Shown in pieces: positions 13,867 to 46,072 of a stretch of 64,000 nucleotides of DNA. A model generated the notes under the pieces. The model was not told the origin of the DNA. It saw only the letters and a list, made by a program, of their open reading frames with translations, and did not search any database. The DNA comes from Pseudanabaena yagii GIHE-NHR1 (GTDB lineage: Bacteria; Cyanobacteriota; Cyanobacteriia; Pseudanabaenales; Pseudanabaenaceae), in assembly GCF_012863495.1 (NCBI RefSeq), contig NZ_JAAVJL010000001.1, forward strand, positions 186,001-250,000, given 5' to 3'. The position numbers and the translations under genes are program-made. How positions within the stretch are numbered: the first letter of the stretch is position 1; each line of letters begins with the position of its first letter.

Positions 13867-13888
13867 TCTAAAACCAAAAATATTTCCC

Positions 13889-16023: not shown

Positions 16024-16041
16024 AGATAGAAACTTCCTTTG

Positions 16042-16815: not shown

Positions 16816-17771
16816 TTAATACCTTGTTTTAAATTTCTTTGGATTATTTGAAGTCTCCTTGCTATTTTCCATCCCAAAAAACTTTTAAAAAATTCAAATA
16901 GTGGACTATTAATAAATTCAATATCTGATCCACCTAACTCAATAATTTTTTCTTCTACTTTAATTAACAAGTCATTTGCTTCTGGATAATATTCATAAAT
17001 AAACCTTTGGAATAAGTTAGCACAAGCTCTACGAGTTCTTACACTATTTTCTTTAGCTAATAAATTTTTAGTACATATATCTAGAGATAAAAAAACAGAT
17101 TCACAAGCTTTACTAGATTTTAATCCACTTAAACTATTAGAATTACCTGACCTATAATAAGATCTTGCTCCCCAGCAAAATTTAATGCCTTTACTTTCCA
17201 GTAAAACCCTACAAAAATATTCACCATCATCATTTAGAGATAAATTCTCGTTCCAACTACCTGATTTGTCTGCAATGTTTCGAGGTGTTAACCAAGCCGC
17301 AGGGTGCATCATACCTCCACCCAACCAAGAGCAGAGAAGCCAATCTATTGAATCCATATCTTGCCAAACTTGCTCCTGCACAAATAAAGCCTCAGATGGT
17401 GCAGTATAAAATCGCCCCCACTCACCCGCAATGACACAATCTTCAATTCCTTTCTTGAGCATCTCTATCTGTAAAGCAATTTTGTTGTGACATAATAAAT
17501 CATCAGCATCTAAATATTGAATAAAATCTCCCTGTGCTTCCATCAAAGCTCTATTTCTGGCAGCACTCGCCCCTCGATTAGACTGTGAAATGATTTTGAC
17601 TTGAGGTGATGCGAATTGTTGGGCGATCTCCAAACTATTATCAGTAGAGCCATCATCTACTAAAATTATTTCTATATTTTGCCAAGTTTGATTTAAGGCA
17701 GAACTAATTGTTTCTCTAAGATAATTCTCGGCGTTGTAGATAGGGATTAAGATCGAGACTAATGGCTTCAT
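16812..17771 (-). CDS. Family 2 glycosyltransferase
   Basis: 319 residues, GT-A fold. N terminus MKPLVSILIPIYNAENYLRETI, nucleotide-binding LVDDGSTDNSLEIA and the DXD-type YLDADDLLCHNKIALQ near residue 92. It adds a sugar from a nucleotide donor at the cytosolic face. The first residues are almost the same as those of the GT2 pseudogene at 22451-22561. Confidence 0.9.
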   Translation of the reverse strand: MKPLVSILIPIYNAENYLRETISSALNQTWQNIEIILVDDGSTDNSLEIAQQFASPQVKIISQSNRGASAARNRALMEAQGDFIQYLDADDLLCHNKIALQIEMLKKGIEDCVIAGEWGRFYTAPSEALFVQEQVWQDMDSIDWLLCSWLGGGMMHPAAWLTPRNIADKSGSWNENLSLNDDGEYFCRVLLESKGIKFCWGARSYYRSGNSNSLSGLKSSKACESVFLSLDICTKNLLAKENSVRTRRACANLFQRFIYEYYPEANDLLIKVEEKIIELGGSDIEFINSPLFEFFKSFLGWKIARRLQIIQRNLKQGIK

Positions 17772-17909
17772 ATGATTAGAAATTAGTTTTCATTATCAAT
17801 CAACTAAATAACATAGGAACTGATCACCTAAAGTGTGAGTGGCATATATTTACATCTTTTTTTCAGCATGAGGACATTTTAGTGTTCATCTTTCATTAAC
17901 TGAGCAGTG

Positions 17910-18329
17910 CTAATAACGTAAATCTCTAAAGTAGGCATTATCTTCGAGAATAGCTTTATCTAAATCTTTCCCATCGATAGTCTTTCCTTGATAACCTCGA
18001 CTGACGAAAAAATCTAGAATACTCTTTCTACCTTCTCCTTGAGAACGTGCTGAGTAGTCTGTAAACTCAATGATTATATGCTGCGGTCGTAAATGACTTC
18101 CCCAGTCCATATAGAATTTGCAGCTCATAGCCCTCCACATCTATCTTCATTAATGTAATTGTCTTAACACCAGAAAAATTTAATAGAGATTGCAAAGTTG
18201 TCGTTGAAACTGCATGGGTGAATTTAGATGAAATACTATCAGAATAATACAACCCTAGCAGTACCAAGATTAGCATTGTTATTACATTCCATCTCTATTA
18301 TCCCTTCAAAATCTGCAAGGGCAATATTA
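17910..18329 (-). pseudogene. FkbM methyltransferase remnant, C-terminal part
   Basis: The C-terminal half of an FkbM methyltransferase can be read in three frames: NIALADFEGIIEMECNNNAN (18329 downwards), then TLMKIDVEGYELQILYGLGK, then HIIIEFTDYSARSQGEGRKS to the stop at 17910. At least two frameshifts (near 18248 and 18100) break it, and the 5' end is cut exactly at the IS1-like element boundary. It is beyond repair by a single mutation, so it is a true pseudogene. Confidence 0.85.
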
Positions 18330-18341
18330 GGCACTGGACAG

Positions 18342-19339
18342 TTAACCCGTGAGAGAAGTAAAGCCCTGTAATGACAGCAACTCTAACATCGAAATCGGTC
18401 GATGATACAGACCGATCGCCATAACTGGAGTCTTGTTCTTGCCTAAGCCCCCATGTGGTCTTACCCAGTTGTGTACCAATCTTTGCACAGTGACAGCCCG
18501 TTGTAATCCTTCAGTATTTTTCGCATACAGGTTTTGTCTACGGCGATAAGCGCTACATCTCCTTCTCAATGCACTGTTGTTTGCTTCATTGTGATTAGCA
18601 TGAACGTCACTCTTGTCGCTAATCGCTGTATAGGGATGTTCTAGCTTTACCCATTCGACTCGACGATTACCTTGTGAACCTTTGATTTTGATTGCCACTT
18701 CTAATCCATGTCGCCATACCTTGCGATGTCCATACTCACGACTTACTTCGCTAGCTTTGAGGTACACACTTGCCATTTGCCACAGTTGTTGGGCATATCT
18801 CCTTTCGCCATCGCTAAAACATCGGATGTATTGACTCATTTTTGCCCATTGCCATGCTATTTTCGTTGCTTTTGCAAATAGTTCAGTGGTTTTAATTCCT
18901 GCCTTTGCTTCAATCCAATAGCGACTGTTGCGTTCGATAAATACTACTGTCCACCCTTTTGATTCACTGGGGGGGGAAGGTTCTCGCCTACGCGAGTATA
19001 AATTTCATCTCCTTCAATAGTCACTTCTCCTCCTGCTGGTGCTTCTGGACTCCATTGCTGTGACTGGTTCGCCAGTTTTTGCTCCCATCTCATGATGCTG
19101 GTGTGCGATTTCTCTAGCACTCTCCCACTTGCTCTGATTCCCATCCCCTCTGTCCTCATTTTCAGCGCATAGGACACGATACTTGCGGGTGTTCTTAGCC
19201 TTGACATCGCTGTTCCTGTCCGTTCGTTGAATCGCTTGCCACATCCTTTGCATAAATAATTTTGGATTGCTTTGCCGTCTTGGTGGTAATCTCTGCCATT
19301 TTTGACCACCTTTTCACTTTGGCAGTGCGGACATTTCAT
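18342..19339 (-). CDS. IS1-family transposase in two frames (-1 shift)
   Basis: Frame 1 (19339 to 18944) encodes a zinc-finger-like head (CPHCQSEKVVKNGRD...CKGCGKRF) and an HTH (SRLRTPASIVSYALKMRTEGMGIR), ending shortly after GENLPPP. Frame 2 is open from the same point to 18342 and encodes the catalytic part (GWTVVFIERNSRYWIEAKAG... to the end, with NLYAKNTEGLQRAV). The switch is a -1 shift at a run of eight C on the coding strand (plus strand G run near 18970). This may be programmed slippage, as known for IS1, or a plain mutation. Confidence 0.8.
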
Positions 19340-19387
19340 CTTTGCCTCCTTGTCTCTACCTCTCTATTTTAACCCTCACTCCTTTAC

Positions 19388-20700
19388 CTGATTGACTGAC
19401 AAAAGTCTATGAAGCATAGTCGAGAGTAGAAGCATAGAACTCAATGCGGAATAATTTCTGAAGATGTTTTCGACGAGAAGCAATAGCAGGGTGAGAGTCA
19501 AGATAAGAAGTAAAAGAGTAGAAAGGCAAGAAAGCCCAGTTTTTAGTGATAGCGGTGTGAATCCAGTTCCAGCCAATCTTGAGATAACTAAGCCCACGAA
19601 ACCAATGAGGATCAACCAAACGACGATAGCCAGAATCAGCAACCGCCAGTCCTTGAGCCGTTAAAAACAAGGTGGTCAGTGCTATCACAAAACAAAGGCG
19701 AGAAATGGCAGGAGCCGAACGTAAACGCGAAGATTCTAAATCAAAGCCATTAGATTTATCATCCAAGAAATTCTCCTCAATATCGAATCTCAGACCATAC
19801 TCCCAAAAAGTTTGGAGTGTGGTAGGTTCAGTACTGAGAATATACCAATACTCTCGGCTCCCAGATTCCCAAGCCGCCGCAATATGCACATCGGTAAGAC
19901 GCTTGGACTCAGTTTTGTGAACTTTAACATTGTGGATCAACTTAGCTTCACCAAGACGAAGATGTAATTGTTTGACTGTTTGCCAGCCATGCTTGGGGGC
20001 ATATATCCAGAAATTACCCTTGATCCGAATCCGACATTGCCATTTTAATTCCCACACATAGCGCACCAGTTCTGGATTAGCAAATGCTCGGTCTGCTAAT
20101 AAAACTACTTTGACATTCACGGGCAACAGTTTCGATGCGCGTTTGAGCATGTCTTGATAGCTACTCATCTCCACACTACTACTGCGATGTTTGATTACAC
20201 GCCAACATAACGGTAAAGCTCTTCCCTGATGAACTACACACAATCGGATCATGCTGTATTCTTCCCACAGTTGACTGGTATCAAAACTCAGATATATTTC
20301 TGGCTCTTTCCATTTAGCGATTAACTCTTTGATTACTGGACTGTATAGCTTAGCTGGATTTATGCGCGGATTGTTCAGCCATCTTGATAGTTGTCTTTGC
20401 GTGCTTTGGGCGATCAATGCTTTTGTGTTGATATGGCTTAACCACTTCGTTAAATTCACACTCCCTGTGGCGATCATTCCCACCATCATCCACGCCATTA
20501 CTCCCAAATGGCGCACATCTGACCACTGGCTGTATTGACTCCCGAATTTTATTAGTTCATTATAGATACGTGAGGCGTTTTGGGTCATTTGTCCTATGCT
20601 CCTTTTTCTTCAAAAAACAGCATACGCCTCTTTTTTACTCAAATTCAATCTCTGTATACTTTCTCGCAACTTCTCTTACCACTTTTGTCAGTCAATCAGA
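19388..20700 (-). mobile_element. IS4-family insertion sequence, nested
   Basis: Perfect 19-bp terminal inverted repeats CTGATTGACTGACAAAAGT (19388-19406 and complement at 20681-20699). An 8-bp duplication TCCTTTAC lies at 19380-19387 and 20701-20708, with one extra A on the right. It is inserted in the right end of the IS1-like element and looks complete and recent. Confidence 0.9.
19407..20588 (-). CDS. IS4-family DDE transposase
   Basis: 393 residues, intact. First catalytic Asp in EIYLSFDTSQLWEE, second in KVVLLADRAFANPEL, and Glu in the IS4 signature Y-x2-R-x3-E-x6-K (YGLRFDIEENFLDDK). The stop codon directly abuts the left inverted repeat. Transposes by cut-and-paste. Confidence 0.92.
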   Translation of the reverse strand: MTQNASRIYNELIKFGSQYSQWSDVRHLGVMAWMMVGMIATGSVNLTKWLSHINTKALIAQSTQRQLSRWLNNPRINPAKLYSPVIKELIAKWKEPEIYLSFDTSQLWEEYSMIRLCVVHQGRALPLCWRVIKHRSSSVEMSSYQDMLKRASKLLPVNVKVVLLADRAFANPELVRYVWELKWQCRIRIKGNFWIYAPKHGWQTVKQLHLRLGEAKLIHNVKVHKTESKRLTDVHIAAAWESGSREYWYILSTEPTTLQTFWEYGLRFDIEENFLDDKSNGFDLESSRLRSAPAISRLCFVIALTTLFLTAQGLAVADSGYRRLVDPHWFRGLSYLKIGWNWIHTAITKNWAFLPFYSFTSYLDSHPAIASRRKHLQKLFRIEFYASTLDYAS

Positions 20701-20719
20701 TCCTTTACTGACCACTGCC

Positions 20720-20834
20720 GAAATAAAAATTTAAAAAGACTCCTAACAATTCGTATTTTTGAAAAATGATTAGGAGTATAACGGAGATATCCAATAATTA
20801 AACGAATGATAGGATGATGCATTGACCATGTCAT
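20720..20834 (-). pseudogene. Probable 5' fragment of the broken FkbM gene
   Basis: From an ATG at 20834 the minus strand reads about 38 residues, including RLIIGYLRYTPNHFSKIRIV and SLFKFLF, then runs into the IS1-like end. This resembles the basic N-terminal leader of FkbM methyltransferases, and the remnant of such a gene lies on the far side of the IS. About 100 residues between the two pieces are missing. The link is an inference from position and style. Confidence 0.5.
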
Positions 20835-21023
20835 AATATTTGTTTTTACTTACAGTATAATAAAGGATTAAATAGTACAAAATGAGAAATTAAATAGTGC
20901 AAATAACGATCAGTAAACTAGTTATTGAAGAAAGACTTGTCTGATAAAGTTAAATTGGCTAGCCAATTTAACTTTTTAGTGATGTGTATTTTTTACATAC
21001 ACATCGCTGAAACTACCATCGAC

Positions 21024-22441
21024 CAGCAATTCTCATTATGAAAAATTAACTACTGTTGGGAGGGAGATCTAACTCCAAACCTTGAATCATAAAAGTCAAA
21101 AGATGATCCCAACTATCAAAAACAAGATATCGAGTCAAGGCGCGTAAATCGTTAAAAAAGGTTTTGCGGGTTGGCAAATGAGAGCGCAATAACTGGTACT
21201 TGTCATCGACCAATTCCAATAACGTGTGAAATAGTAGGGACAAAATATTGAGGGTGGCTAGGAATGAAGCAAGATGCTCCTTGCCATGTCCAAAGTTGTG
21301 TTCTAGGTTGTAGCCCTTAGTTTTGAGAGTATTGTTATTCTCATTTTCCACTTTCCAACGAGTACGACCAGCCAGCACGATTTCCACCACTGTTTGCTCA
21401 GTAATCAGGTGATTGGTGGCAAAAGAGTTTTTGTAAACTACCTTGCCATCAGGTCTAGTCACAGTTAGTTCACACCAGTTAACCAGCAAAGCATCGTCAC
21501 CATCTTTGATAGGTAGCCCATTGACATATTGGTAGGTATAGGTCTCTTGAACTTTCCCTGTCCACTTATTGACAACCACCGTTGGCAAAGCAATCCCTTC
21601 TATATGCTCATAGATAGTGGGGTGAGATTCGGGGCGGCAGACTAAGATGAAGTTGAACTGTTGCTCTAATAGCATTTGGCAGAGGGGTTGGCGAGAATAA
21701 AGGTCATCACCCAAAACAGTTACCTTGAATGCACTGTACTTACTGCCATGTTGTAACAACCATCTTTTGGCGGCTGTATTCTCACAGTCTTGCTTGTCAT
21801 TTCCATCCTGCGGCACAATAAATTCTGGTACTAGGGGAATCACTTGCGATTGATGTGGACTGACGATAACTGGCGTAACTACGCTATGAAAATAATGAAT
21901 TTCTCCTGATTTCATTTTCCTACTCGAACAATGGTGACAGTGTATTTGTTTTGAACTAAAGTACTCTGTCCCATCTAGCGCCATTAATAGATTGTTGGCG
22001 AATCCTCGAAATCCTTGCAGTTTCCCCTTTTGCTCTATCGTCTCCAAGATTGTCTCGAACACTGGAAACATTTCTTTAGGTTGCACTGGGTCTAGCAAGT
22101 CTCGGATATGGTTATCCGTTGGTATTTTATGCACCCCAAATAAACTTTGGGCGTTGCTTCGCCCTTTTGTCTGCTCCATTGTCCGCTGGTAAGACAAGAA
22201 TGATGGACTTTGAGTGAAAAATACACTGAATGCACTCATGGCTGCATCTTCCATGCCATAGCGACTATTTTTGCCTGTCCGCTTGTCTGGCAATGATTCT
22301 AGTTGTTGTCGGAAAATTTCTACAATTCTGTCGAATGAGCCTTGTGCTTTCAAAGCTCTTCCCCTAAATCAATCATCATGTTATTTACAATATCCCTATA
22401 TCAACGGTTTGACTAGCCTTCGTTCATAATGAGAATTGCTG
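21024..22441 (-). mobile_element. Insertion sequence with perfect TIR and 9-bp duplication
   Basis: 19-bp perfect inverted repeats CAGCAATTCTCATTATGAA at 21024-21042 and (complement) 22423-22441. Target duplication ACCATCGAC at 21015-21023 and 22442-22450. The target was a GT2 glycosyltransferase gene, of which a 5' remnant survives on the right. Confidence 0.92.
21046..22353 (-). CDS. DDE transposase of the 21.0-22.4 kb IS
   Basis: 435 residues, intact. The N-terminal part has RTGKNSRYGMEDAAMSAFS and a zinc-like patch CHHCSSRK. Likely catalytic acids are Asp in LLMALDGTEYF, Asp in KVTVLGDDLYSRQPL and Glu in RWKVENENNNTLKTKGY followed by LEHNFGHGKEHL. The family was not assigned with certainty; it resembles unclassified (ISNCY-like) or distant IS4-like elements. 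Confidence 0.85.
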   Translation of the reverse strand: MKAQGSFDRIVEIFRQQLESLPDKRTGKNSRYGMEDAAMSAFSVFFTQSPSFLSYQRTMEQTKGRSNAQSLFGVHKIPTDNHIRDLLDPVQPKEMFPVFETILETIEQKGKLQGFRGFANNLLMALDGTEYFSSKQIHCHHCSSRKMKSGEIHYFHSVVTPVIVSPHQSQVIPLVPEFIVPQDGNDKQDCENTAAKRWLLQHGSKYSAFKVTVLGDDLYSRQPLCQMLLEQQFNFILVCRPESHPTIYEHIEGIALPTVVVNKWTGKVQETYTYQYVNGLPIKDGDDALLVNWCELTVTRPDGKVVYKNSFATNHLITEQTVVEIVLAGRTRWKVENENNNTLKTKGYNLEHNFGHGKEHLASFLATLNILSLLFHTLLELVDDKYQLLRSHLPTRKTFFNDLRALTRYLVFDSWDHLLTFMIQGLELDLPPNSS

Positions 22442-22450
22442 ACCATCGAC

Positions 22451-22561
22451 AATAATAGTTCTATATTTTGCCAAGTTGTGGGATAGTAAAGAATCCAATA
22501 TTTCTGACATATATAGTGAAGCATTGTAGGCTGTGGGCAAAATATAAACTAGTGGCTTCAT
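22451..22561 (-). pseudogene. GT2 glycosyltransferase 5' remnant
   Basis: From the ATG at 22561 the minus strand reads MKPLVYILPTAYNASLYMSE and continues to a TIIVDG nucleotide-binding motif before the IS. The frame after the IS (below 21015) soon loses similarity. This is the start of a GT2 gene close to the intact one at 16812-17771, truncated by IS insertion and decay. Confidence 0.75.
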
Positions 22562-22569
22562 GACTATAC

Positions 22570-23514
22570 TTAAAAATTACTACGAAGTTGTGGCTTCAAA
22601 AGCCTGATCAACCATTCTCTTAAGCGAATTGCTAAATAAGGATTATAGCTAGATAATAATCGAAACGAAGAGCTTAATTTTTTTGAAGGTTTATTGTTGA
22701 GAGATAGAGCTAATTGTAAACAGCTATCAGCCGTCTCCCAATCTAAATAAGCAGCCGCATTACCAGCAATTCCCCAAAGATTTTGAGTAATTTCTTCAGC
22801 ATATTTACCCTTAAGAGACTCAGCCACCTTTCTCATAACATGAAATTTAGCTTTTATACATTTAATTTGATTAGCAGAAGACATGGAATTTGATCGATAG
22901 TAATTAATAATTGTGATAGTTGGTTCGGCTGCAAATTTTAAACCAGCGATCGCCATCCGACAATGAAAAGCTACATCCTCATTATAAAGAACTAAAGGAT
23001 CGGTATCATAACCACCTGCACGTAAATATGAAGAACGGAGATACAAACCACAAAAGGGATTAATTTGTTCTCGGATTGCATAGGATATCGAATCTCTTTT
23101 TAATTCAGCAGCATCAAATTGACGCACACTAATTAACTCTCCAGTATCATCTCTGCGCCATTCATAATCAAACAAAACAATATCTGGTGGATTCTTTAAT
23201 GCCATCCATTTACGAGCTTGTTCTACAAAATTTGGATACAAGGCATCATCAGCATCATGGAAATGTATCCAGTCACAATTTGTTGCTTCTGCTAATACAT
23301 TTTTTCCATAAGAACAACCTCGATTAACCTCACCTCTAATTATTTGAATTCCATACTTAGCAGCAACTTGTGCTGTCTCATCAGTACTACAGTCGTCATA
23401 AACCAAAATCTCATCAAATGGGACTTGTTGCGATATAGCAGATTCTAGTAGTCTTGGTAAATATGAAGCAGCATTATATGCTGGAATACACAAAGCTAAA
23501 GATTGCGAAACCAT
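22570..23514 (-). CDS. Family 2 glycosyltransferase
   Basis: 314 residues, GT-A fold. SLALCIPAYNAASYLPRLLE at the N terminus, LVYDDCSTDETAQVAA, WIHFHDADDALYPNF (DXD type) and FCGLYLRSSYLRAGGYD with DPLVLYNEDVAFHCRM in the acceptor half. The first base of its start codon region overlaps the previous stop by one base (23514), showing tight coupling with the GT4 gene. Confidence 0.9.
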   Translation of the reverse strand: MVSQSLALCIPAYNAASYLPRLLESAISQQVPFDEILVYDDCSTDETAQVAAKYGIQIIRGEVNRGCSYGKNVLAEATNCDWIHFHDADDALYPNFVEQARKWMALKNPPDIVLFDYEWRRDDTGELISVRQFDAAELKRDSISYAIREQINPFCGLYLRSSYLRAGGYDTDPLVLYNEDVAFHCRMAIAGLKFAAEPTITIINYYRSNSMSSANQIKCIKAKFHVMRKVAESLKGKYAEEITQNLWGIAGNAAAYLDWETADSCLQLALSLNNKPSKKLSSSFRLLSSYNPYLAIRLREWLIRLLKPQLRSNF

Positions 23515-24851
23515 TACATTTTCTTCAAAACTTTCCTAAGACTACGATTAATTGTATAGCCAACTAAATCTCGTAATGGCAGTCTATCTAAAAAAGCTAG
23601 TGGTCTATCTAGTTTCTGTTGCGGTGAGACCGCATCAATTAACCATTGATTAGGTTTCATAGGATATTTACCACGAGTGATTAAATCTTCGTAAGCACGT
23701 ATTCGTTTTTGAGCAATTAGCCTCGGATCAAGCTCCTTAATTACAGTTTCCTTTGCTATTAGACCAACTTCGCGTAATTTACTTGCACTCCAACTCATTA
23801 CTGTTTCTAGACAAGTAGCTAAACTTTGTGAATCATTTGCTTTAAAAGTTAAGCCATTTAATCCATTATGAATTAAATCTACGGCTCCTGCTCCTTCTGA
23901 ACACAGTACCACCTTTCCCTGAGCCATTCCTTCTACACAAGTATAGTTAAATACATCCCAAATAGAAGGCACAACGATAAATTTTGCATGTGCTTGATAT
24001 TGGCGAATTATTTCTGATGAAAACGTACCAAGTGGCAGTATTTTACTTCGCCAAATATCTCTATAATTTTGCTCTAAATGTCTGGACATCAGACTCTTGG
24101 AATCGAAATAAACTGTATCACGCCCAATCCAATCAATATTTGGGGCTTGCTCTCTCAACAGCCTCAATGCTTCGCAAAGAACTGTTACACCTTTCCAATA
24201 TTGAATTCGTCCTACTACTAAACCATTACCCAAATCAGGATTTTCGGGTGCTATATTTATATTCTTAAGTGTTAGCGATGGTGGAATATAGTGAACATTA
24301 CGGTTTGTTAGCAGTTGCCAAGCCTTTGCGTTAGATTGGCTATTTGCTTGCAACTCATCGGCACTAGCTAATAATCCTGCTTCTAGTAATCGAACAAAAC
24401 TGCCTTGCAAGCGACTATCGATCTGCGGATCATAGAAATCTATCTGCCCGACACTGGCATGAAGCTGAACGACAGTAGGGGGACTATTAGTAGATGTAAT
24501 CCAAGGTGCAAATAGCATTCCCCAATCAGTTACTTCAACTAAATCATATCCATCTCCTCCCTTGACGTACTCCCATGCTGCCCACGCTGCGGCAAGATGT
24601 CTTTGCAATTCAGGAGTTGTTTTGTAGCAACTAAATTTATGTGAATAGAAATTGACTAAATCTGTGTCTAGAAAATCCACTTTAACACTATCTTTTACAT
24701 AGCTAGGTAACTTAGACATAAAGGCGCTACCTACTACAATACTAATTTGATGTCCTTGGTCAGCAATTTCTGGAATTATATCTCTGTAGAAGGTAGAAAT
24801 TCCACCACCGAAATGAGGCGGATATTCAGGGATAATATACAAGAGCTTCAT
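23514..24851 (-). CDS. Family 4 glycosyltransferase
   Basis: 445 residues, GT-B fold. The acceptor domain opens with MKLLYIIPEYPPHFGGGIST; the donor domain shows VVGRIQYWKGVTVLCEALRL, IVVPSIWDVFNYTCVEGMAQ and VVLCSEGAGAVDLIHNG, with the typical E-x7-E region. It works on the same cytosolic glycan assembly line. It overlaps the next upstream gene by 4 bases. Confidence 0.92.
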   Translation of the reverse strand: MKLLYIIPEYPPHFGGGISTFYRDIIPEIADQGHQISIVVGSAFMSKLPSYVKDSVKVDFLDTDLVNFYSHKFSCYKTTPELQRHLAAAWAAWEYVKGGDGYDLVEVTDWGMLFAPWITSTNSPPTVVQLHASVGQIDFYDPQIDSRLQGSFVRLLEAGLLASADELQANSQSNAKAWQLLTNRNVHYIPPSLTLKNINIAPENPDLGNGLVVGRIQYWKGVTVLCEALRLLREQAPNIDWIGRDTVYFDSKSLMSRHLEQNYRDIWRSKILPLGTFSSEIIRQYQAHAKFIVVPSIWDVFNYTCVEGMAQGKVVLCSEGAGAVDLIHNGLNGLTFKANDSQSLATCLETVMSWSASKLREVGLIAKETVIKELDPRLIAQKRIRAYEDLITRGKYPMKPNQWLIDAVSPQQKLDRPLAFLDRLPLRDLVGYTINRSLRKVLKKM

Positions 24852-25786
24852 TTAATCACCTCATCTAGGAATTCATCTAACAGAGAATTAAGAAGCTTAG
24901 GATTTCTTTCCTTTAGATACGTAAGATAATAGTTTTTAGATATATGTTCCAAGTCAGATAATGGGATAGAGAAAATATACTTGATTGATCGATATAAATC
25001 ATCAAAATTAAGTTCAAGAAAAAACTCCTTTAGTTTTGGACTAAAACTCAAAGGAGCCTTGCCAACTGGCACACATCGAGCATAAGCACACTCACTATAT
25101 TTTAAAAATTCTAGTCCACAACGAGATGGCGAAATGAACATGAATATATACTTAGATAAATATTCAATATATTTATTTCCAATAATGTCATGAACTAACT
25201 TTTGGTTAATATCAGGGTAACCAGGATGTTTTAAGGTAGAAATTTTGTTGACTAAGCAGGGATTAAATTTAACCTTTTTAATAAACTGGTATCTATACGG
25301 ATAAACAAAACGATCTTGATTACCCGAGAATAGTATTTTTTTTATTCGTTTATCTAAACCTTTCTTAATATTAAAGTTATCATTAAATGGATATGGAATA
25401 AATATCATTTTCTTACTTTTCAAGGATATTTCTAAATCCTTAACCACCTCCTGTGGAATATAAGTAGTAAGAAAAAAAACATTTATAAGGTCTTTTATTC
25501 TAAACAAAAAGTTATAGTAATAGTGGTTCCTACACCATTCCTCACATGGATCAACTACCTTGAGCAGAAATAACATAGCCTTGTTTGCTCCTATGTACTT
25601 CTCAAGTTTAAAACACTCTAATTCATTAATACGGTTATCGATAATAATGATACTTGTTTGATACAAGCTAATATTATCTAAATAATCAGTTTCCCAACCC
25701 ATATTGAATGCATAGTTTGGACCAGCGTCCTGAGTAATCATTTTAGAGTAATCAAATTCTTTTGATAGAATTAAAATTTTTTTCAT
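24848..25786 (-). CDS. Unrecognised protein in glycan cluster
   Basis: 312 residues, soluble, AT-rich codons. N terminus KKILILSKEFDYSKM; middle KKMIFIPYPFNDNFNIKKG and KKILFSGNQDRFVYPYRYQF; later FMFISPSRCGLEFLKYSECA and ARCVPVGKAPLSF. The IPYPF, LFSGNQ and the S-rich C-terminal donor-like segment are reminiscent of GT-B glycosyltransferases, so a divergent glycosyltransferase is a fair guess, but I cannot name a family. It overlaps the downstream GT4 by 4 bases. Confidence 0.6.
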   Translation of the reverse strand: MKKILILSKEFDYSKMITQDAGPNYAFNMGWETDYLDNISLYQTSIIIIDNRINELECFKLEKYIGANKAMLFLLKVVDPCEEWCRNHYYYNFLFRIKDLINVFFLTTYIPQEVVKDLEISLKSKKMIFIPYPFNDNFNIKKGLDKRIKKILFSGNQDRFVYPYRYQFIKKVKFNPCLVNKISTLKHPGYPDINQKLVHDIIGNKYIEYLSKYIFMFISPSRCGLEFLKYSECAYARCVPVGKAPLSFSPKLKEFFLELNFDDLYRSIKYIFSIPLSDLEHISKNYYLTYLKERNPKLLNSLLDEFLDEVIK

Positions 25787-25872
25787 TAGCTAGACAATAT
25801 AAAAATTAGTCAGACAAACAAATTTAATCAAACACTCAAATGGAATAATAAACTTATATTGCTCGTATAAGT

Positions 25873-26817
25873 TCACTTTGTTGTTGTTGCTATATTCTTA
25901 ATTTCTTGTAAAGCCAACTTAAGTGCTAAGTTACTAGCTAGTCTCATCTTTCTTTCTAAAGGAGTAAGTTTAAGTAATCGGATTTGTTCAATAAAAGCTA
26001 AAATTAAATTTTTGTTTGGATTGTTCGGTATTCTACCGTTACGGATGTAATCAAGTATATATCCTGAAGTTCCACCTTCACGCCTGAGACGCAATAGATA
26101 TTCTAGACTTAACCGCTTATTGGGTATCAGGTGTAATAATTTGAGAGACGGAAAAATACCTGTACCATAATTACAGTCATACGAGGTAAATGCTAAATCT
26201 GTATCTCCACCACTAGATAGAAAGGTTCCTCTGCGATCAAGTAGAATTCTAACAGGGTCATTTTTGACAACTTCTTTGTAATAAATAGCCACTTCTCTTC
26301 GGATACACATACCAGCTCCATAGGGTAAATTTTGATCATTGACTGATGTATTTCCCCAAATTGGTTTACTTACAGTTCGTATCGCCAAAAAAGATAGAAA
26401 TGGTTTCTGCCATTCTTCAATAGGCTTCTCTGTTTCTGCAGTGATAGAGCCTCCTATTGCTCCTAGATAGGGATATTTAGTGAAAATATTTAAACATTCT
26501 TCAAGATAATTAGCATCTATAACATTATCATCATCAACAAAAACTAAAATATCTGATTTAGCTTCTTCAATGCCTCTTAATCTAGCAGGAGTTAATCCTA
26601 GTTGTTCTTCTCGAATATGACGAGAATTTAAATGCCATCTCAGATCTATTTCGTCTGAGAGTATCCTTGAGCTTGCATTATCAATTAATAATAACTCCCA
26701 TAATTCTTTAGATAAAGTTTGTGAATCAAGGGCTTGTAATACTCGAATCAAATAATCGGGACGTGGATTGTACGTGCAAATAATAACGCTAATTAAAACA
26801 GAGGAAGTCATAAACAA
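25873..26817 (-). CDS. Family 2 glycosyltransferase
   Basis: 314 residues. VLISVIICTYNPRPDYLIRV, LLLIDNASS, ILVFVDDDNVIDANYLEECL (DXD motif) and LGAIGGSITAE, then SSGGDTDLAFTSYDCNYGTG in the acceptor part. GT-A enzyme of the glycan cluster; donor and acceptor unknown. About 85 bases separate it from the next gene downstream, the largest gap in this half of the operon. Confidence 0.9.
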   Translation of the reverse strand: MFMTSSVLISVIICTYNPRPDYLIRVLQALDSQTLSKELWELLLIDNASSRILSDEIDLRWHLNSRHIREEQLGLTPARLRGIEEAKSDILVFVDDDNVIDANYLEECLNIFTKYPYLGAIGGSITAETEKPIEEWQKPFLSFLAIRTVSKPIWGNTSVNDQNLPYGAGMCIRREVAIYYKEVVKNDPVRILLDRRGTFLSSGGDTDLAFTSYDCNYGTGIFPSLKLLHLIPNKRLSLEYLLRLRREGGTSGYILDYIRNGRIPNNPNKNLILAFIEQIRLLKLTPLERKMRLASNLALKLALQEIKNIATTTK

Positions 26818-26839
26818 TTAAACAATTACTTAATAGTTT

Positions 26840-27550
26840 TTAATAAAATTTCTTTTTGATTTTCTTTAAAAATATTTCCAAATATGTTTTAAGACTAGCA
26901 TTTCCTTCTATAAATTTATGTAATGATTTAAATGTTTCAATATACAGATCTGGATGGACTATAGACATTAATTTGGTTTCTGTGCCAGCATTTATTTCAT
27001 CCCTTTTAGCGACAAAAATATTTTGCTTATACCACCATTCAGGAAAATCTTTATTCCAAATTAAAGGTCTAATTTCATCAAAACAAGCATATCTATACTT
27101 ATTAAATAAGTCTTGCCAATAATCAATCCATTGGCAATTAATATGTCCTTGACCAGGTTGATTTGGACATGCTGCCGAAAATATTATTATGTCAGAATGA
27201 TTTGTAAGAGATTGCACAAAAATGGAATCTAAATCACTTGGCAAATGTTCTGCTACTTCAAGGCATAACAGTAAATCAAATTTTTTTCCAAGATTCCAAT
27301 AATTTGTTAGATCATATTTTTTAAATTTTTCTTTAGATGCAAGGAACTCTTCATCACTTACTTCAATTCCATCAATCCCAACATAGTCTTCAATTCCATA
27401 TTCAGAAACTATCTTTAGCCATGTCCCTGTTCCACAACCAACATCTAATATATTCTTTGGTCTATACAATTCATTAATAATTGGAAATATGACGGAAGGT
27501 GCATCTATAAGATGCATATTTCCTGAGTGACTATAGTTGATAATACTCAT
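26840..27550 (-). CDS. Class I SAM-dependent methyltransferase
   Basis: 236 residues. SAM motif I NILDVGCGTGTWLKIV, motif II YVGIDG, and FDLLLCLEVAEHLP, which is typical of Methyltransf_11/23 enzymes. Acts on an unknown small molecule or sugar; within a glycan cluster it may methylate a sugar. It overlaps the TylF-like gene by 4 bases. Confidence 0.85.
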   Translation of the reverse strand: MSIINYSHSGNMHLIDAPSVIFPIINELYRPKNILDVGCGTGTWLKIVSEYGIEDYVGIDGIEVSDEEFLASKEKFKKYDLTNYWNLGKKFDLLLCLEVAEHLPSDLDSIFVQSLTNHSDIIIFSAACPNQPGQGHINCQWIDYWQDLFNKYRYACFDEIRPLIWNKDFPEWWYKQNIFVAKRDEINAGTETKLMSIVHPDLYIETFKSLHKFIEGNASLKTYLEIFLKKIKKKFY

Positions 27551-28218
27551 GATTTTTTGATAATAAAGCAGACTTTATTGAATGATTCAATCCTCTCTGA
27601 ACGAGATTTTTCACTTAAAAAGTCATGAATGGCTTTGCTGCAACCATCCCAAGTATAATAGTCATCTAAAATTATTAAACCTCCTTCTTTTACCAAATCA
27701 AACAGATTATCCAAGCAGATTTTTGTTGACTTATACCAGTCAGCATCAAGACGAAGCAGAGCGATTGGAGTATCTGGTCTAAAATCAGGTAGTGTCTCTT
27801 CAAACCAGCCCTCACCAAAAGTATATTTCTTTGCGCAGGAAATTGACATTGCCTCTTCTGCGTATTCTTTAGGTGCATAACAATTGTCAAAATACATTGC
27901 ACCATTAATATTATTCTGCCAGTCAAGGGCTGATTGACCATCAATTTCTTGAGCCTTAGGAAGTCCTTGAAAACTATCAAATAAATAATAGGACCTCGTA
28001 TCTCCCAATACATCTGCAACACCTCCGATCATACCTCCTCGCCAGACACCACACTCAACAACACATCCATCTAGATCAATTATTTTCTTAGCTAAAACTA
28101 AGTTGCTAATATAAACTGATTCAGGAATCATAGTAAATTTCTTGAATTTTTTATATATTCTCTTAAATTTTAAATTTTCTTTATATTTGCAAAATATTTC
28201 GCGTAAATAATTTACCAT
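27547..28218 (-). CDS. TylF/macrocin O-methyltransferase family
   Basis: 223 residues. VVECGVWRGGMIGGVADVL, YYLFDSFQGLPKAQEIDG, EGWFEETLPDFRPDTPIALL, LRLDADWYKSTKICLDNLFD and GGLIILDDYYTWDGCSKAIH match the TylF family closely. Members O-methylate deoxysugars with SAM and a metal; the Asp-rich LRLDAD and LDDYYTWDG carry the metal site. This supports a methylated sugar in the glycan. Confidence 0.92.
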   Translation of the reverse strand: MVNYLREIFCKYKENLKFKRIYKKFKKFTMIPESVYISNLVLAKKIIDLDGCVVECGVWRGGMIGGVADVLGDTRSYYLFDSFQGLPKAQEIDGQSALDWQNNINGAMYFDNCYAPKEYAEEAMSISCAKKYTFGEGWFEETLPDFRPDTPIALLRLDADWYKSTKICLDNLFDLVKEGGLIILDDYYTWDGCSKAIHDFLSEKSRSERIESFNKVCFIIKKS

Positions 28219-28232
28219 AGTATATTAATTCC

Positions 28233-29471
28233 TTAGTATTCAAGCTTAATACAGGAAGATATAGGAACTATATATCCATGATCAATACTATGAGGATAGC
28301 TTCTATTAATAATTGGTGATTCATTAATCTCAAACACCACAGCTTCTTTTATCCAATCTATTGTTTCATTATTATGACTTCCAACCCAAGCAGAGACTAA
28401 GTATTGTCCTGGAATAAGCGGAGGAAGTTGAATATTAATTCTTAATAAATGAAGTGTTATTTTATAATATAGAAGATCATCATAGCAAGGGACTGCCTGC
28501 ATTATAGCTGTACCAGTAGAATCCAAAATATCAATTGCTAAAAATGCTGGCTTATGACTGTCTAATGACTTAAGCTGCAACTCTAGTTCTATTTCTAGAT
28601 TGGGCTGCTTCCCAATTAGATCAATAGTGATTTGAGTAATTACTAAACTACCATTTTTATATTTTTCTGATCTCTTCCAAAGAGAGCCTTGATTTTTTAT
28701 GTTTTCAGCTTCATAAATTTTCAAGCAGCTTAAAGAACTACCAATACTGACTAATTTCCCAGTTTTTAATAGCATTGCAGTTGAACATAGCGTCCGAATC
28801 GCAGCCATGTTATGACTAACGAATAGAATAGTTCTTCCTTCTTTACCAACATCTTCCATCTTTCCTAAACATTTTTTCTGAAACTGGGCATCACCTACGG
28901 CTAGGACTTCATCAACAATTAAAATCTCTGGTTCTAGATGGGCAGCTACGGCAAAGGCTAGGCGCACGTACATTCCTGAAGAATAACGTTTGACAGGGGT
29001 ATCTAAGAATTTTTCGATTTCTGCAAAAGTGACTATTTCATCAAATTTTTTCTTGATCTCAGCGCGATCCATCCCTAAGATCGCTCCATTGAGATAGATG
29101 TTTTCCCTGCCTGTAAGTTCTGGATGGAATCCTGTGCCAACTTCTAGAAGACTGGCGACTCTACCTTTAATTGAAATTTTGCCAGTAGTGGGTTCAGTGA
29201 TGCGGCTAAGAATTTTTAATAATGTTGATTTGCCTGCACCATTGCGTCCGATGATGCCAACGCGATCGCCTTGTTTAATTTCAAAAGAGATATCTTTAAG
29301 TGCCCAAAATTCTTCGATATTTGGATCAATATATTCCTGCTTAGAAAATCTTTTACCTATTGATTTTATGCCATTAGCGATAACATCTCTTAGAGCTGTA
29401 TATCTTTCTCTCTCGTGACCAATTATATATTTTTTACTTAGATTCTCTACTCTAATTACAGTTTCGGACAT
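28233..29471 (-). CDS. Wzt-type polysaccharide export ABC ATPase
   Basis: 412 residues. ATPase domain at about 1-245: Walker A GIIGRNGAGKST, signature RYSSGMYVRLAFAV, Walker B ILIVDEVLAVGDAQF, switch His LFVSHNMAA. A C-terminal Wzt-type beta-sandwich (about 270-412, IEIQL-rich, ending GYIVPISSCIKLEY) binds the finished glycan. Wzt works with a Wzm permease to export O-antigen or teichoic-type polymers; no wzm is next to it, because the upstream neighbour is tRNA-Leu. It is the first gene of the minus-strand cluster. Confidence 0.93.
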   Translation of the reverse strand: MSETVIRVENLSKKYIIGHERERYTALRDVIANGIKSIGKRFSKQEYIDPNIEEFWALKDISFEIKQGDRVGIIGRNGAGKSTLLKILSRITEPTTGKISIKGRVASLLEVGTGFHPELTGRENIYLNGAILGMDRAEIKKKFDEIVTFAEIEKFLDTPVKRYSSGMYVRLAFAVAAHLEPEILIVDEVLAVGDAQFQKKCLGKMEDVGKEGRTILFVSHNMAAIRTLCSTAMLLKTGKLVSIGSSLSCLKIYEAENIKNQGSLWKRSEKYKNGSLVITQITIDLIGKQPNLEIELELQLKSLDSHKPAFLAIDILDSTGTAIMQAVPCYDDLLYYKITLHLLRINIQLPPLIPGQYLVSAWVGSHNNETIDWIKEAVVFEINESPIINRSYPHSIDHGYIVPISSCIKLEY

Positions 29472-41391: not shown

Positions 41392-43095
41392 ATGAGTCAG
41401 ATAATAGGGCAAGTGGGGCAATCCGTAGGGGAATCAGTTTGGAAAAGGTTGCGTCATGGCAACATTGCCTCCTGTGAAGAGGCTTTGCAATTTCTAATTG
41501 ATATTCACGGCAACGTACATCTAGATTGGTTAGATAAAGATTTAAATCATCGATTTTTTCGCGAATTTGAAGATCGCAGCATTTTGCCGCCTGTAATCCC
41601 ATTATTGCTATGGCGCAATTGTTTTTATATCGGTAGCCCCAACAATATCAGTCACGAACAGATCAAGCTAATTAGCGATCGCACGTTAACGGAAATTAAA
41701 GTCCTCAGGATTTCAGCCGACAGTTATCGCACATGGTTTCGTCGCCAAAATATTCCTAATCCTAATCAGATTCACTCAGCACAACCGATCAATCCCCTCA
41801 CAGGTGAAACCGAGCAAGTTGATATTGGTGAAGTCACCGATTTGTACCTATCCCAAGCGGTCGATCAGACGCGACGCATTAATGCCCTAATTTCGATCGC
41901 CTTACAACATCGCGCCAGTGACATTCATCTAGAGCCAACCCCCACTGGCTTACGGGTACGCTATCGCATTGATGGCATTTTGCGCGATATCAAAACCTTG
42001 CCACTCGAAATTAGTCGCAAAATTATTGTTGCCCTCAAGGTAATGTCCAATATGGATATTGCCGATAGTCGCCGCCCCCAAGATGGACGCATTGGCAAAG
42101 AATATACCAGCGATGAAAACCTCAATCTCAATCTCGATATGCGGGTGAGTACCTTGCCCTGCGTCTGTGGAGAAAAAGCGGTAATTCGGCTATTGCCTCG
42201 CGATAATCCTTTTTCTAATCATTTGGAATCTTTGGGCTTTAGCGATCACACTCTGAAAATTTATGACAGTTGGTTACGGCAACCTCAAGGACTAATCATC
42301 ATGACGGGACCAACGGGATCGGGCAAAACCAGTACTCTGTATACCAGCTTGCAAGCGATCGCCCAAGAACATGTCAATGTGATCACCGTGGAAGATCCCG
42401 TTGAATATGTTTTGCCGAATATTACGCAAACACAGGTTTGTGAACCCGCAGGCATGACTTTTGCCGCAGGACTACGCGCCATCCTCAGACAAGATCCCGA
42501 TATTGTCATGGTCGGGGAAGTCCGCGATCCTGAAACGGCGGAAACCGTTGTCCGTGCAGCTCTAACAGGTCACTTAGTTCTCTCAACCATGCACACTAAT
42601 GATGCGGCTAGTGCGATCCCCCGCCTTAAGGATTTAGGACCTGATCCTGGATTAATTAGTGATGCTCTATTAGGTGTAGTCGCTCAACGTCTTGTCCGTA
42701 AAAACTGTCCCTATTGCTCAGTTACCCATCATCCACAAACCTCGGAATTACAAGCCCTAAGGCTGGAACGCGAAGATCTTAATCCCACACAGTGGCGTAA
42801 AGGCAAGGGCTGTAAAAAATGCTTTTTCACAGGTTACATTGGGCGGGAAGCAGTTGTGGAACTCATCGATATTGATGATGCCTTTCGCCACATGATTTAT
42901 GAAGGCACAATTACCCAAATGAATCGTTATCTTAATGAAATTGATTTTAATTCTTTCCGAAAGGCAGCGATCGATAAACTCAATGCTGGAATTACCACCA
43001 GTGAAGAAGTTTTACGAGTATTACCACGCAGTGCCTTGCATCGAGTTAATTCCCCTATTTCCCGTCAAGCCCATATCAAAGCCATTAACGTATAA
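41392..43095 (+). CDS. GspE/PilB-type secretion ATPase
   Basis: 567 residues. After an N-terminal region of about 150 residues comes IALQHRASDIHLEPTPTGLR, Walker A GPTGSGKTSTLYTSL, ITVEDPVEYVL (Asp box), LRQDPDIVMVGEVRDPETAE (Walker B) and the His box HLVLSTMHTNDAA. A four-Cys zinc module (NCPYCS...GCKKCFFTGY) is present. These hexameric ATPases drive type IV pilus or type II secretion assembly from the cytosolic side. It lacks pil neighbours here, so PilB versus GspE is open. Confidence 0.93.
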   Translation: MSQIIGQVGQSVGESVWKRLRHGNIASCEEALQFLIDIHGNVHLDWLDKDLNHRFFREFEDRSILPPVIPLLLWRNCFYIGSPNNISHEQIKLISDRTLTEIKVLRISADSYRTWFRRQNIPNPNQIHSAQPINPLTGETEQVDIGEVTDLYLSQAVDQTRRINALISIALQHRASDIHLEPTPTGLRVRYRIDGILRDIKTLPLEISRKIIVALKVMSNMDIADSRRPQDGRIGKEYTSDENLNLNLDMRVSTLPCVCGEKAVIRLLPRDNPFSNHLESLGFSDHTLKIYDSWLRQPQGLIIMTGPTGSGKTSTLYTSLQAIAQEHVNVITVEDPVEYVLPNITQTQVCEPAGMTFAAGLRAILRQDPDIVMVGEVRDPETAETVVRAALTGHLVLSTMHTNDAASAIPRLKDLGPDPGLISDALLGVVAQRLVRKNCPYCSVTHHPQTSELQALRLEREDLNPTQWRKGKGCKKCFFTGYIGREAVVELIDIDDAFRHMIYEGTITQMNRYLNEIDFNSFRKAAIDKLNAGITTSEEVLRVLPRSALHRVNSPISRQAHIKAINV

Positions 43096-43133: not shown

Positions 43134-43418
43134 TTATGCCTGAACTTTTACACCTCGCCAAAAAGCTATATGTCCTTTAATCTGTTTAGCCGCATCCTTT
43201 GGTTCAGGATAATACCACGCAGCATCCTTGTTGGTTTCACCATTAACTTCGATGTTGTAGTAGCTTGCTACACCCTTCCAACCACAAGTTGTATGGGTAT
43301 TGCTAGGCTTAAAATATTCCATATTCAGAGAATCCGCAGGGAAGTACTGATTTCCCTCCACAACTTCACAGCGATCGCTCTCCGCAAGGACAGCACCATT
43401 CCAAATAGCCTTTGGCAT
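43134..43418 (-). CDS. DUF427-domain protein
   Basis: 94 residues from ATG 43418. MPKAIWNGAVLAESDRCEVV, YFPADSLNMEYFKPSNTHTT, CGWKGVASYYNIEVNG and AAWYYPEPKDAAKQIKGHIAF are the DUF427 pattern. The upstream in-frame ATG (43469) adds a leader not typical of the family. Small, soluble, of unknown function. Confidence 0.88.
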   Translation of the reverse strand: MPKAIWNGAVLAESDRCEVVEGNQYFPADSLNMEYFKPSNTHTTCGWKGVASYYNIEVNGETNKDAAWYYPEPKDAAKQIKGHIAFWRGVKVQA

Positions 43419-43469
43419 ATATTTTAATATCTTGAAAATCATTTCACTTGCTATTGTAATAGTTCGCAT

Positions 43470-43933: not shown

Positions 43934-46072
43934 ATGCTTTTAATCACAGTTGGCACAGAACAATATCAGTTTAATGCTTTAATGCAATGGATAGACATAC
44001 TGATAAAGTACCAACTAGTTAATAATGAAGAAATAGTAGTACAATATGGCTCTTCTAATTATTTACCCGATGGAGCAAGAGCTTATCGGTTTCTGTCTGA
44101 GCAAGAATTCTTGAGCTTTGTTGACAGAGCAAGTTTAATTGTTAGTCATTGTGATGAAAGTATTGCTGAACTACTGGAGGATCAAGAAAATCCCTATGTT
44201 CTAGTTCCGCGATTACAGAGATTTCGTGAACATATAGACAATCGTCAAATGGAGGTTGCAGAGGATTTTGAACGTCGAGGAGTAGCGATCGCAAGATCCC
44301 CAGGAGATCTTGTGAAATTTCTAAAATTACAGCAAACTTCAGATATAACTCCGCAAGTTGATGAAACTGATTTGTGTGAATACCTAAAAGCAAGATATCC
44401 ATCTCAGAAGTTAATGTTAATTAGCTCTTCAGGTGGTTACTTCCGTTATATGCAAAGCATGAAGCCATTTTGGCAAAAATTTAGTGATCGCTGTTGGATC
44501 TCTATCCGTACTGCGATCACGGAAAAACAGATAGAAGATGATCACCGCTATTGGGGATATATACCTGTCAAGGATAACTTGCCAAACATGTTTCGCAACC
44601 TACTATTGGCGATAAAGGTTGTACCAAAACAGAAGCCAGATTTAGTTTTTTGCACAGGTTCAGGTTTTGCCATTCCCTATTTGTTAGTTGCGAAATGGAT
44701 TTGTCATAGCAAGATAGTTTATGTTGAATCTAAGACGCGCCTTCATACTTTAGGTTTACCTGCTTGGCTATTAATGAAGTTAAATGTATTAGATTTACTT
44801 GTAGTTAGAAGTAGAGAGATTGCGAATCTTCATCCGAAATCTGTTTACATTCCTGTCCATGATATTAGTCAAGACTCTACTAGTCTCAGGGATTACAAAC
44901 AAGCATTAATTGTGACCTTTGATGAGGTTGCTTTTATCTACAGTCCTGAAAGATTAGAATTTTCTACTGCTAGAGAATTCCTGAGTGATTTTCAAACTAT
45001 TTGTAATCCTGATGAGTTTTACAAAAAAATTATCATTGATATGAGCCATACCACTTTTATGGATGGAGCAGGATTAGGTGCATTAACTAATTGTCTGAGA
45101 TTCGCTAAATTAAACAAGACTGAGTTAGTACTTTGGAGTGTTAGTGAAGCGGTAAGCTCTTTGATATCACTGTCTTCCCTCAGCAATTTATTTATAATTG
45201 AGCCAAACACCAATACATTTCGGTTTTCACATTTAATTCAGGAAAATCGAGTCAGTAATATTACACCATTTGGTTTATTCCTATTCCGCACACAGAGATT
45301 ACTCAAGAAAATCCCTGTCCTAAGAATTTTTTATCCGATATTAAAATTCTGCTTCCCTTCGGTGGATATTGATCCTGGTGTTCCTGTCCATCCCTCTGTA
45401 AGAGACCCTTTAAAGAGATTAATTGATATCATCGGAGCACTGATCGGGCTAAGCTTTACAGCTATTCTATTTGCACCGATCGCGATCGCAATTCTCATGG
45501 AAAGTAAGGGTAATGTGTTATTTGGGCAAGTCCGTTGTGGACTACTCAGTCGACCATTCAAGATTTGGAAATTCCGCTCAATGGTACAAAATGCTGAACA
45601 GCTAAAGATGAAAGTAGAAAATCAAGTGAGTGCTAGTACTGCTAATGCCCAAGGAAGTGAACAATCGAATAGTGCTAATGACAAATTTTTCAAGAATGCC
45701 GATGATCCTCGTGTAACTAGGATTGGTAAATTCTTACGAAAGACTAGTCTTGATGAATTTCCCCAATTTTGGAATGTACTAATTGGTGATATGAGCTTAG
45801 TTGGTACTCGTCCACCTACCTTTAATGAGATTAACTCCTACGAACTAGAGGTTGAATATCAGGATGAGCGCTACACTGAATGGAACCGCCTTGATGTCAG
45901 ACCAGGGATTACAGGTGTATGGCAAGTAAATGGGCGTTCTAGTGTAAGGAGTTTTGCAGAAGTAGTGAACTATGACATCGAATACCGTAAAAATTGGAGT
46001 ATTTGGTACGATCTTCAGCTAATTGTAAAAACAGTTTTAGTTATATTTGATAAAAACAATAAAGCAGTATAG
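43934..46072 (+). CDS. Alg13-Alg14-STAS-sugar transferase fusion
   Basis: 712 residues with four recognisable modules. (1) About 1-130, an Alg13/PssE-like glycosyltransferase half (MLLITVGTEQYQFNALMQWI, SLIVSHCDESIAELLE). (2) About 150-310, an Alg14/PssD-like half (LMLISSSGGYFRYMQSM, DLVFCTGSGFAIPYLLVAKW, KIVYVESKTRLHTLGLPAW). (3) About 320-440, a STAS domain (KIIIDMSHTTFMDGAGLGAL) in which the usual phospho-Ser position is not Ser. (4) About 485-712, a polyprenyl-phosphate sugar phosphotransferase (KRLIDIIGALIGL, IWKFRSM, TSLDEFPQFWNVL, PGITGVWQVNGRSS). It would prime a lipid-linked sugar and add the second sugar in one polypeptide. Confidence 0.9.
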   Translation: MLLITVGTEQYQFNALMQWIDILIKYQLVNNEEIVVQYGSSNYLPDGARAYRFLSEQEFLSFVDRASLIVSHCDESIAELLEDQENPYVLVPRLQRFREHIDNRQMEVAEDFERRGVAIARSPGDLVKFLKLQQTSDITPQVDETDLCEYLKARYPSQKLMLISSSGGYFRYMQSMKPFWQKFSDRCWISIRTAITEKQIEDDHRYWGYIPVKDNLPNMFRNLLLAIKVVPKQKPDLVFCTGSGFAIPYLLVAKWICHSKIVYVESKTRLHTLGLPAWLLMKLNVLDLLVVRSREIANLHPKSVYIPVHDISQDSTSLRDYKQALIVTFDEVAFIYSPERLEFSTAREFLSDFQTICNPDEFYKKIIIDMSHTTFMDGAGLGALTNCLRFAKLNKTELVLWSVSEAVSSLISLSSLSNLFIIEPNTNTFRFSHLIQENRVSNITPFGLFLFRTQRLLKKIPVLRIFYPILKFCFPSVDIDPGVPVHPSVRDPLKRLIDIIGALIGLSFTAILFAPIAIAILMESKGNVLFGQVRCGLLSRPFKIWKFRSMVQNAEQLKMKVENQVSASTANAQGSEQSNSANDKFFKNADDPRVTRIGKFLRKTSLDEFPQFWNVLIGDMSLVGTRPPTFNEINSYELEVEYQDERYTEWNRLDVRPGITGVWQVNGRSSVRSFAEVVNYDIEYRKNWSIWYDLQLIVKTVLVIFDKNNKAV

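Follow-up and report, generated by a model that had tools for sequence, protein, structure and literature searches.

A fusion of PssE-like, PssD-like, STAS and phosphoglycosyl transferase modules in Pseudanabaena and the divergence of its two copies

Can the first two steps of exopolysaccharide assembly be coupled in one polypeptide, and which of its parts still carry the residues that such a coupling would need? The question is raised by a gene in a 64,000-nucleotide stretch of the Pseudanabaena yagii GIHE-NHR1 genome (contig NZ_JAAVJL010000001.1, positions 186,001 to 250,000; hereafter the window), for which an initial annotation made from the DNA alone had proposed a single chain of Alg13-like, Alg14-like, STAS and sugar-phosphate transferase modules in an arrangement unfamiliar to it. 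Provided that each module acts like the rest of its family, one chain would tie together the first two membrane steps and a switch domain.

Gene, modules and neighbourhood

The proposed single chain is borne out by an intact ORF and by Pfam and NCBIfam profiles, which place a PssE/Alg13-like module (E), a PssD/Alg14-like module (D), a STAS domain and a monotopic phosphoglycosyl transferase (PGT) in this order from the N-terminus (Table 1). Both glycosyltransferase halves, whose kinship with Alg13 and Alg14 was the part of the annotation most exposed to profile searches, do match profiles of that type: Glyco_tran_28_C, the family of the MurG C-domain and Alg13, matches residues 1-129 (E 1.7e-5, 25.4 bits, cut-off 22) and Alg14 residues 219-306 (E 1.3e-9). 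The NCBIfam models PssE (residues 3-121, E 1.5e-17, 63.9 bits) and PssD (residues 161-305, E 6.1e-16, 59.1 bits) match below their equivalog cut-offs of 120 and 110, respectively. STAS spans residues 331-426 (E 6.1e-11) and Bac_transf (PF02397) residues 494-705 (E 9.5e-64).

Table 1. Features of the fusion gene and its upstream neighbours (window coordinates)
Feature	Position	Strand	Basis
PilB/GspE-like ATPase (T2SSE), syntenic with copy A	41392..43095	+	profile, synteny
DUF427 protein, neighbour conserved beside copy A	43134..43469	-	synteny
Four-module fusion gene, copy A, 712 aa	43934..46072	+	uninterrupted ORF, ATG to stop; Pfam, NCBIfam
E module: PssE/Alg13-like (MurG C-domain-like), residues 1-140	43934..44353	+	Pfam PF04101, NCBIfam PssE
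Asp74 at the Gly position of copy B (HCDE vs HCGEG)	44153..44155	+	copy A/B alignment; Asp in 22/22 copy A
D module: PssD/Alg14-like (MurG N-domain-like), residues 155-310	44396..44863	+	Pfam PF08660, NCBIfam PssD, MurG N-domain fold
Tyr169 replacing the His of the GGH motif	44438..44440	+	copy A/B alignment; need for the His in Agl24 from passages of PMC8993221
STAS domain, residues 325-432	44906..45229	+	Pfam PF01740; RsbV/SpoIIAA-type fold
Ala379 at the presumed SpoIIAA-type phospho-Ser position (DGAG vs copy B DSSG)	45068..45070	+	alignment
Monotopic PGT (Bac_transf) module, residues 486-712	45389..46069	+	Pfam; PglC/WbaP fold
Asp607-Glu608 pair of the PGT	45752..45757	+	kept in 22/22 copy A, 21/21 copy B; presumed catalytic dyad

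Structure prediction agrees with the D, STAS and PGT modules drawn from the profiles. In the predicted model of the window protein (mean pLDDT 84.0, pTM 0.67) residues 157-308 take the MurG N-domain fold (Z 14.1-14.7), residues 320-427 the STAS fold of the RsbV/SpoIIAA type (from the Foldseek list and a fold alignment) and residues 484-707 the PglC/WbaP fold (Z 17.0-19.0). The predicted model of the paralogue, copy B (L016; pLDDT 84.4, pTM 0.58), has the same three folds for D (MurG Z 15.0-15.4), STAS and PGT, and its E half aligns, in a single row, to the C-domain of the glycosyltransferase 8h5d (Z 11.5). As MurG is described in passages of PMC8993221 as an Alg14-like part followed by an Alg13-like part, the two halves are reversed in the fusion protein.

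Copy A is found as the same four-module ORF in 22 genus genomes, and copy B in 21. The window gene is therefore free of the frameshift or assembly join against which the initial annotation had asked for a check, and the probability of an artefact, in favour of which nothing was found, is practically negligible.

In the window, a PilB/GspE-like ATPase gene is situated upstream of copy A, as it is in 18 of the 19 other loci whose upstream flank extends for 5 kb or more. A paralogue precedes copy B in 2 of 16 loci with such a flank, and in G397 and G404 one is found about 9 kb from copy B. A functional tie between copy A and the ATPase was nevertheless rejected and the association kept as synteny only, because the ATPase is also present in genera without the fusion and in three genomes with copy B alone; at E 1e-100 it is matched in 36 of the 38 genomes of the host's family, and in 34 of these a copy reaches 69% identity or more. 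Paralogues of the window ATPase in the host genome are 61% identical to it and, in a frame of 677 aa that may be PilB, 43% identical. Elsewhere in the window, a further Bac_transf PGT of 484 aa (4769-6223, +) was observed, as was a run of glycosyltransferases with an FkbM methyltransferase and a Wzt-like ABC protein (12640-29471, -), perhaps a surface polysaccharide cluster; for 3 of the 10 window proteins scanned, a Pfam match was not found at E 0.001.

Distribution and origin of the fusion

The host genome carries two full copies, A in the window and B on contig C3, which are 51% identical; the only further match to the E-D profile in this genome covers 63 positions (E 0.0012). The full-length chain occurs in 4 of 386 sampled cyanobacterial genomes, all of the host's genus. 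At E 1e-5 the E-D profile matches 28 of the 386, and in the 24 matching genomes outside the genus whichever halves were found lie in separate frames, E being fused to STAS-PGT in G109. In other cyanobacteria STAS-PGT stands alone or adjoins separate D and E genes, several Nostocales loci having the order D, E, STAS-PGT, followed by a STAS on its own. A contig scan returned sequences with cyanobacterial titles throughout the best 80 of 582 relatives (14 of the 80 at full length), and none of 1014 matching plasmid records had one place spanning 80% of copy B.

Within the host's family, which includes Pseudanabaena, the fused form was found in 28 of 38 genomes. It is present in 25 of the 26 genomes of the genus (both copies in 18, only A in 4, only B in 3), the fusion-free one being 82% complete, and in 3 of 12 genomes of other genera, once interrupted by a contig end. 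The 22 copies of A, host genome counted, are 69-100% identical to the window protein. Four genus genomes are without it: the 82% complete one, G411 with only a remnant (E residues 1-94, L266:8422-8701) adjoining the ATPase and DUF427 genes, and G398 and G399, in which copy A was not found at its site at E 1e-3. Among the genomes examined, the four-module chain is confined to the host's family, and no description of it was found among the literature matches listed (titles, abstract openings and passages, mostly outside subscription papers), so that it is not a common and described fusion by either measure. The unfamiliarity claimed for the arrangement holds for the chain as a whole but not for its STAS-PGT part, which is already known, widespread in cyanobacteria and in print as Anabaena all4160.

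A quick maximum-likelihood tree of the STAS-PGT part (95 rows, with G386, at a contig end, left out) separates the 45 fused forms from the rest by a branch with an SH-aLRT support of 99. Copies A (100) and B (99) form groups of their own and join each other with a support of 98, the single-copy forms G390 and G415, both long branches, lying outside. This topology fits a single fusion followed by a duplication. The stem of copy A is longer than that of copy B (0.62 vs 0.33), and some loss of invariant positions in copy A is therefore to be expected anyway, although the PGT module escaped it. In G390 all three motifs are present (E loop, D His, DSSG); in G415 the E loop and the D His are lost and the STAS motif reads DGSG. 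By the proposed history, separate PssD-like, PssE-like and STAS-PGT genes, still found in other cyanobacteria, would have fused once in the host's family, and duplication of the fused E-D-STAS-PGT gene would have given rise to copies A and B.

Divergence of the two copies and its interpretation

Motifs were counted in 22 copies of A and 21 of B. The Asp-Glu pair of the PGT, which we take to be the catalytic dyad of monotopic PGTs, lies in S[LIF]DE in all sequences of both copies, and WKFRSM and GTRPP are present in 22 of 22 copies of A. The second Ser of the STAS motif DSSG, presumably the phosphorylated site of SpoIIAA-type proteins, is kept in 21 of 21 copies of B (DSSG 20, NSSG 1) and absent from 21 of 22 copies of A (DSAG 14, DGAG 7, including residues 377-380 of the window protein, and DTSG 1, whose Ser runs counter to a uniform loss). 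Split STAS-PGT sequences, near-copies counted, read DSSG in 46 of 47 rows of an alignment whose 12 copies of A include one sequence twice (L013/L090). The initial annotation was thus right that the STAS domain is without the usual phospho-Ser, and the residue was lost in copy A, copy B and G390 having retained it. The E loop reads HCDE in 22 of 22 copies of A (HCDES in the window protein) and HCGEG[ST] in 21 of 21 copies of B. The ESKTR stretch of the D half is exact in 17 of 22 copies of A. The His of the GGH motif of this half is kept in none of the 22 copies of A (21 Tyr, 1 Ala) and in all 21 of B; according to passages of PMC8993221, Agl24 deprived of this His is inactive. Profile matches alone would label the window protein a second-sugar transferase despite these missing residues.

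Of the positions invariant in the 21 copies of B plus G390 (E 66, D 56, STAS 27, PGT 98), copy A retains on average 74.6% in E, 61.9% in D, 68.5% in STAS and 95.4% in the PGT, and G415 retains 57.6%, 64.3%, 88.9% and 93.9%. In the reverse comparison, copy B retains 88.1% (of 45), 89.6% (of 26), 83.0% (of 19) and 92.3% (of 108) of the positions invariant in the 22 copies of A plus G390. Mean pairwise identities of A and B in the 18 genomes with both are 0.813 and 0.819 for E, 0.688 and 0.768 for D, 0.762 and 0.771 for STAS, and 0.840 each for the PGT. The D half is less identical in A than in B in 120 of 153 pairs, a weaker conservation which could also come from relaxed constraint. In the 10 of the 153 matched pairs with dS between 0.05 and 1.5 in both copies, pairs which share genomes, the median ratio of module dN to gene dS is 0.056 in A and 0.052 in B for E, 0.116 and 0.097 for D, 0.063 and 0.079 for STAS, and 0.044 and 0.047 for the PGT. 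A decaying pseudogene is disfavoured by the fixed replacements and by a dN/dS that in copy A is about as low as in copy B.

The reading preferred from these sequence comparisons, at a probability of roughly 0.55, is that the four modules were fused once and then duplicated, and that copy A would be a priming PGT with a non-catalytic E-D scaffold or sensor and a STAS domain not switchable at the usual Ser. The PGT module would transfer a sugar-1-phosphate to the polyprenyl-phosphate carrier and thereby start the exopolysaccharide. Second-sugar addition by the E-D half and a STAS switch worked by Ser phosphorylation would be possible in copy B. Copy A would still be a priming enzyme, but one whose E-D half most likely no longer catalyses and serves as a scaffold or sensor; its STAS domain, not switchable at the usual Ser, would act as if permanently unphosphorylated. 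A switch and second-sugar halves without key residues beside an intact-looking starter half suggest that old enzyme parts may have been re-used for control. The four-module architecture originally proposed for the window gene is right, but both of its second-sugar halves have lost residues kept by relatives, so that the coupling of the first two exopolysaccharide steps fits the paralogue better.

Lost motifs alone are no proof of lost catalysis in the E-D half of copy A, which may instead belong to a working two-step enzyme using another donor or catalytic residue, its STAS domain being controlled otherwise. The low dN/dS of E and D, similar to that of copy B in the 10 pairs, the Asp fixed in the E loop and the largely exact ESKTR stretch would all suit such an enzyme; it is nonetheless considered unlikely, as the GGH His and the E-loop Gly were lost together and the retention of invariant positions in the D half falls far below that of the PGT (62% vs 95%). 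Quite improbable is a regulatory copy A that pairs with copy B. Of the 26 genus genomes, 18 have both, and passages of PMC10942596 describe WbaP, a large PGT, as a homodimer, but copy A is alone in four genomes and copy B in three, and copy A keeps its PGT motifs. The A/B pair, with motifs absent in one and complete in the other, offers a natural test of the role of the glycosyltransferase halves and of the STAS phospho-site for the priming enzyme.

RsbW-type kinases, which could serve a STAS switch, are expected as small open frames, and 3 of the 8 HATPase_c_2 matches above the cut-off in the host genome are in frames of 147-154 aa. There are 8 SpoIIE-type phosphatase matches as well; none of either kind was linked to copy A or B. 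Nostoc punctiforme HmpV is suggested in passages of PMC8256260 to be active when dephosphorylated, and by analogy the Ala form of STAS would be constitutively active.

E halves which persist without a D half were found elsewhere in cyanobacteria. Loci in which the E half is separate or fused as E-STAS-PGT number 32 when copies are grouped so as to count once; D is nearby in 28 of them, and the HxGxG loop of the PssE-type half, which the window protein lacks, is present in all 28 by alignment. The loop is lost in all four loci without a nearby D (G008, G213, G109 and L030), in which E adjoins or is part of STAS-PGT (4/4 vs 0/28, Fisher p 2.8e-5 with relatedness ignored). G008 and G213 belong to one family, so that there were about three loss events rather than four. 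A D match was not found at E 1e-5 in the whole genomes of G008, G213 and G109, nor was D found within 17.5 kb in L030. G109 carries a 473-aa E-STAS-PGT fusion (L207:6635-8056, -). The 28 and 4 were counted by hand from the alignment, in agreement with the locus grouping; a fixed-window pattern overlooks the loop in L091 and L149, which have shifted starts and show it in the alignment. The E halves of L208 and L030, with no Pfam match, and of L209, with a weak one, were assigned by profiles built here. STAS-PGT lies within the examined stretch in 17 of the 28 D-bearing loci, the remaining stretches being mostly short. A contrary case is G286, whose D half is without the GGH His and whose E loop is kept. 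Near E and STAS-PGT in G304, a 646-aa ORF (L212:6262-8199, -) was called that joins a GT2 glycosyltransferase to a PssD/Alg14-like domain.

An E half can thus outlast its partner while adjoining or joined to STAS-PGT, a persistence that a role as a plain transferase half would not explain. A wider, tentative and somewhat doubtful idea is that the cyanobacterial Alg13-like half repeatedly gave up catalysis to become a regulatory part of the priming PGT, in copy A, the E-STAS-PGT of G109 and the D-less E genes. Such a pseudo-glycosyltransferase might sense a sugar nucleotide or lipid intermediate and gate the start of the polysaccharide, and copy A would dispense with the phospho-switch.

Comparison with known systems

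The closest known counterpart of the C-terminal part is the cyanobacterial STAS-PGT, as in Synechocystis MYO_RS16820 on pSYSM, which we take, from the adjoining NACHT and response-regulator genes, to be Slr5056/XssP, and in which STAS is followed by a Bac_transf PGT as in the fusion. Loss of xssP is reported in passages of PMC8205485 to abolish bloom formation and suppress EPS. Passages of PMC4390870 list all4160 among the genes needed for heterocyst envelope polysaccharide synthesis, and those of PMC8256260 describe it as a glycosyltransferase with an N-terminal STAS. Both MYO_RS16820 and all4160, the latter compared by description only, are without the Alg13/Alg14-like halves on their chain. 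SpoIIAA and RsbV share the STAS fold with the window protein, whose STAS domain differs in being without the Ser and fused to an enzyme.

PssD/PssE, EpsE/EpsF, Cps14F/G and Alg14/Alg13 consist of the same two halves as the fusion, but such two-part transferases are mostly two genes, whereas the window gene is fused, has E first and shows motif losses. The WelK glucuronosyltransferase profile (NF046028) is matched by window residues 2-146 in its C-terminal part (169-313 of 319); unlike the window protein, it has its PssD-like part first (split PssD matches 3-152) and is without STAS or PGT. The Alg13-Alg14 fusions of Entamoeba and Dictyostelium share the reversed order of halves in one chain with the window protein but are eukaryotic, and the description of them in passages of PMC8993221 includes neither STAS nor PGT. 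Bi-functional and large monotopic PGTs such as WbaP likewise join a PGT core to an extra part, to which a nucleotide-sensing regulatory role is assigned in the case of WbaP in passages of PMC10942596. This part is a PF13727 domain in WbaP; in the window protein it is a MurG-like pair together with STAS.
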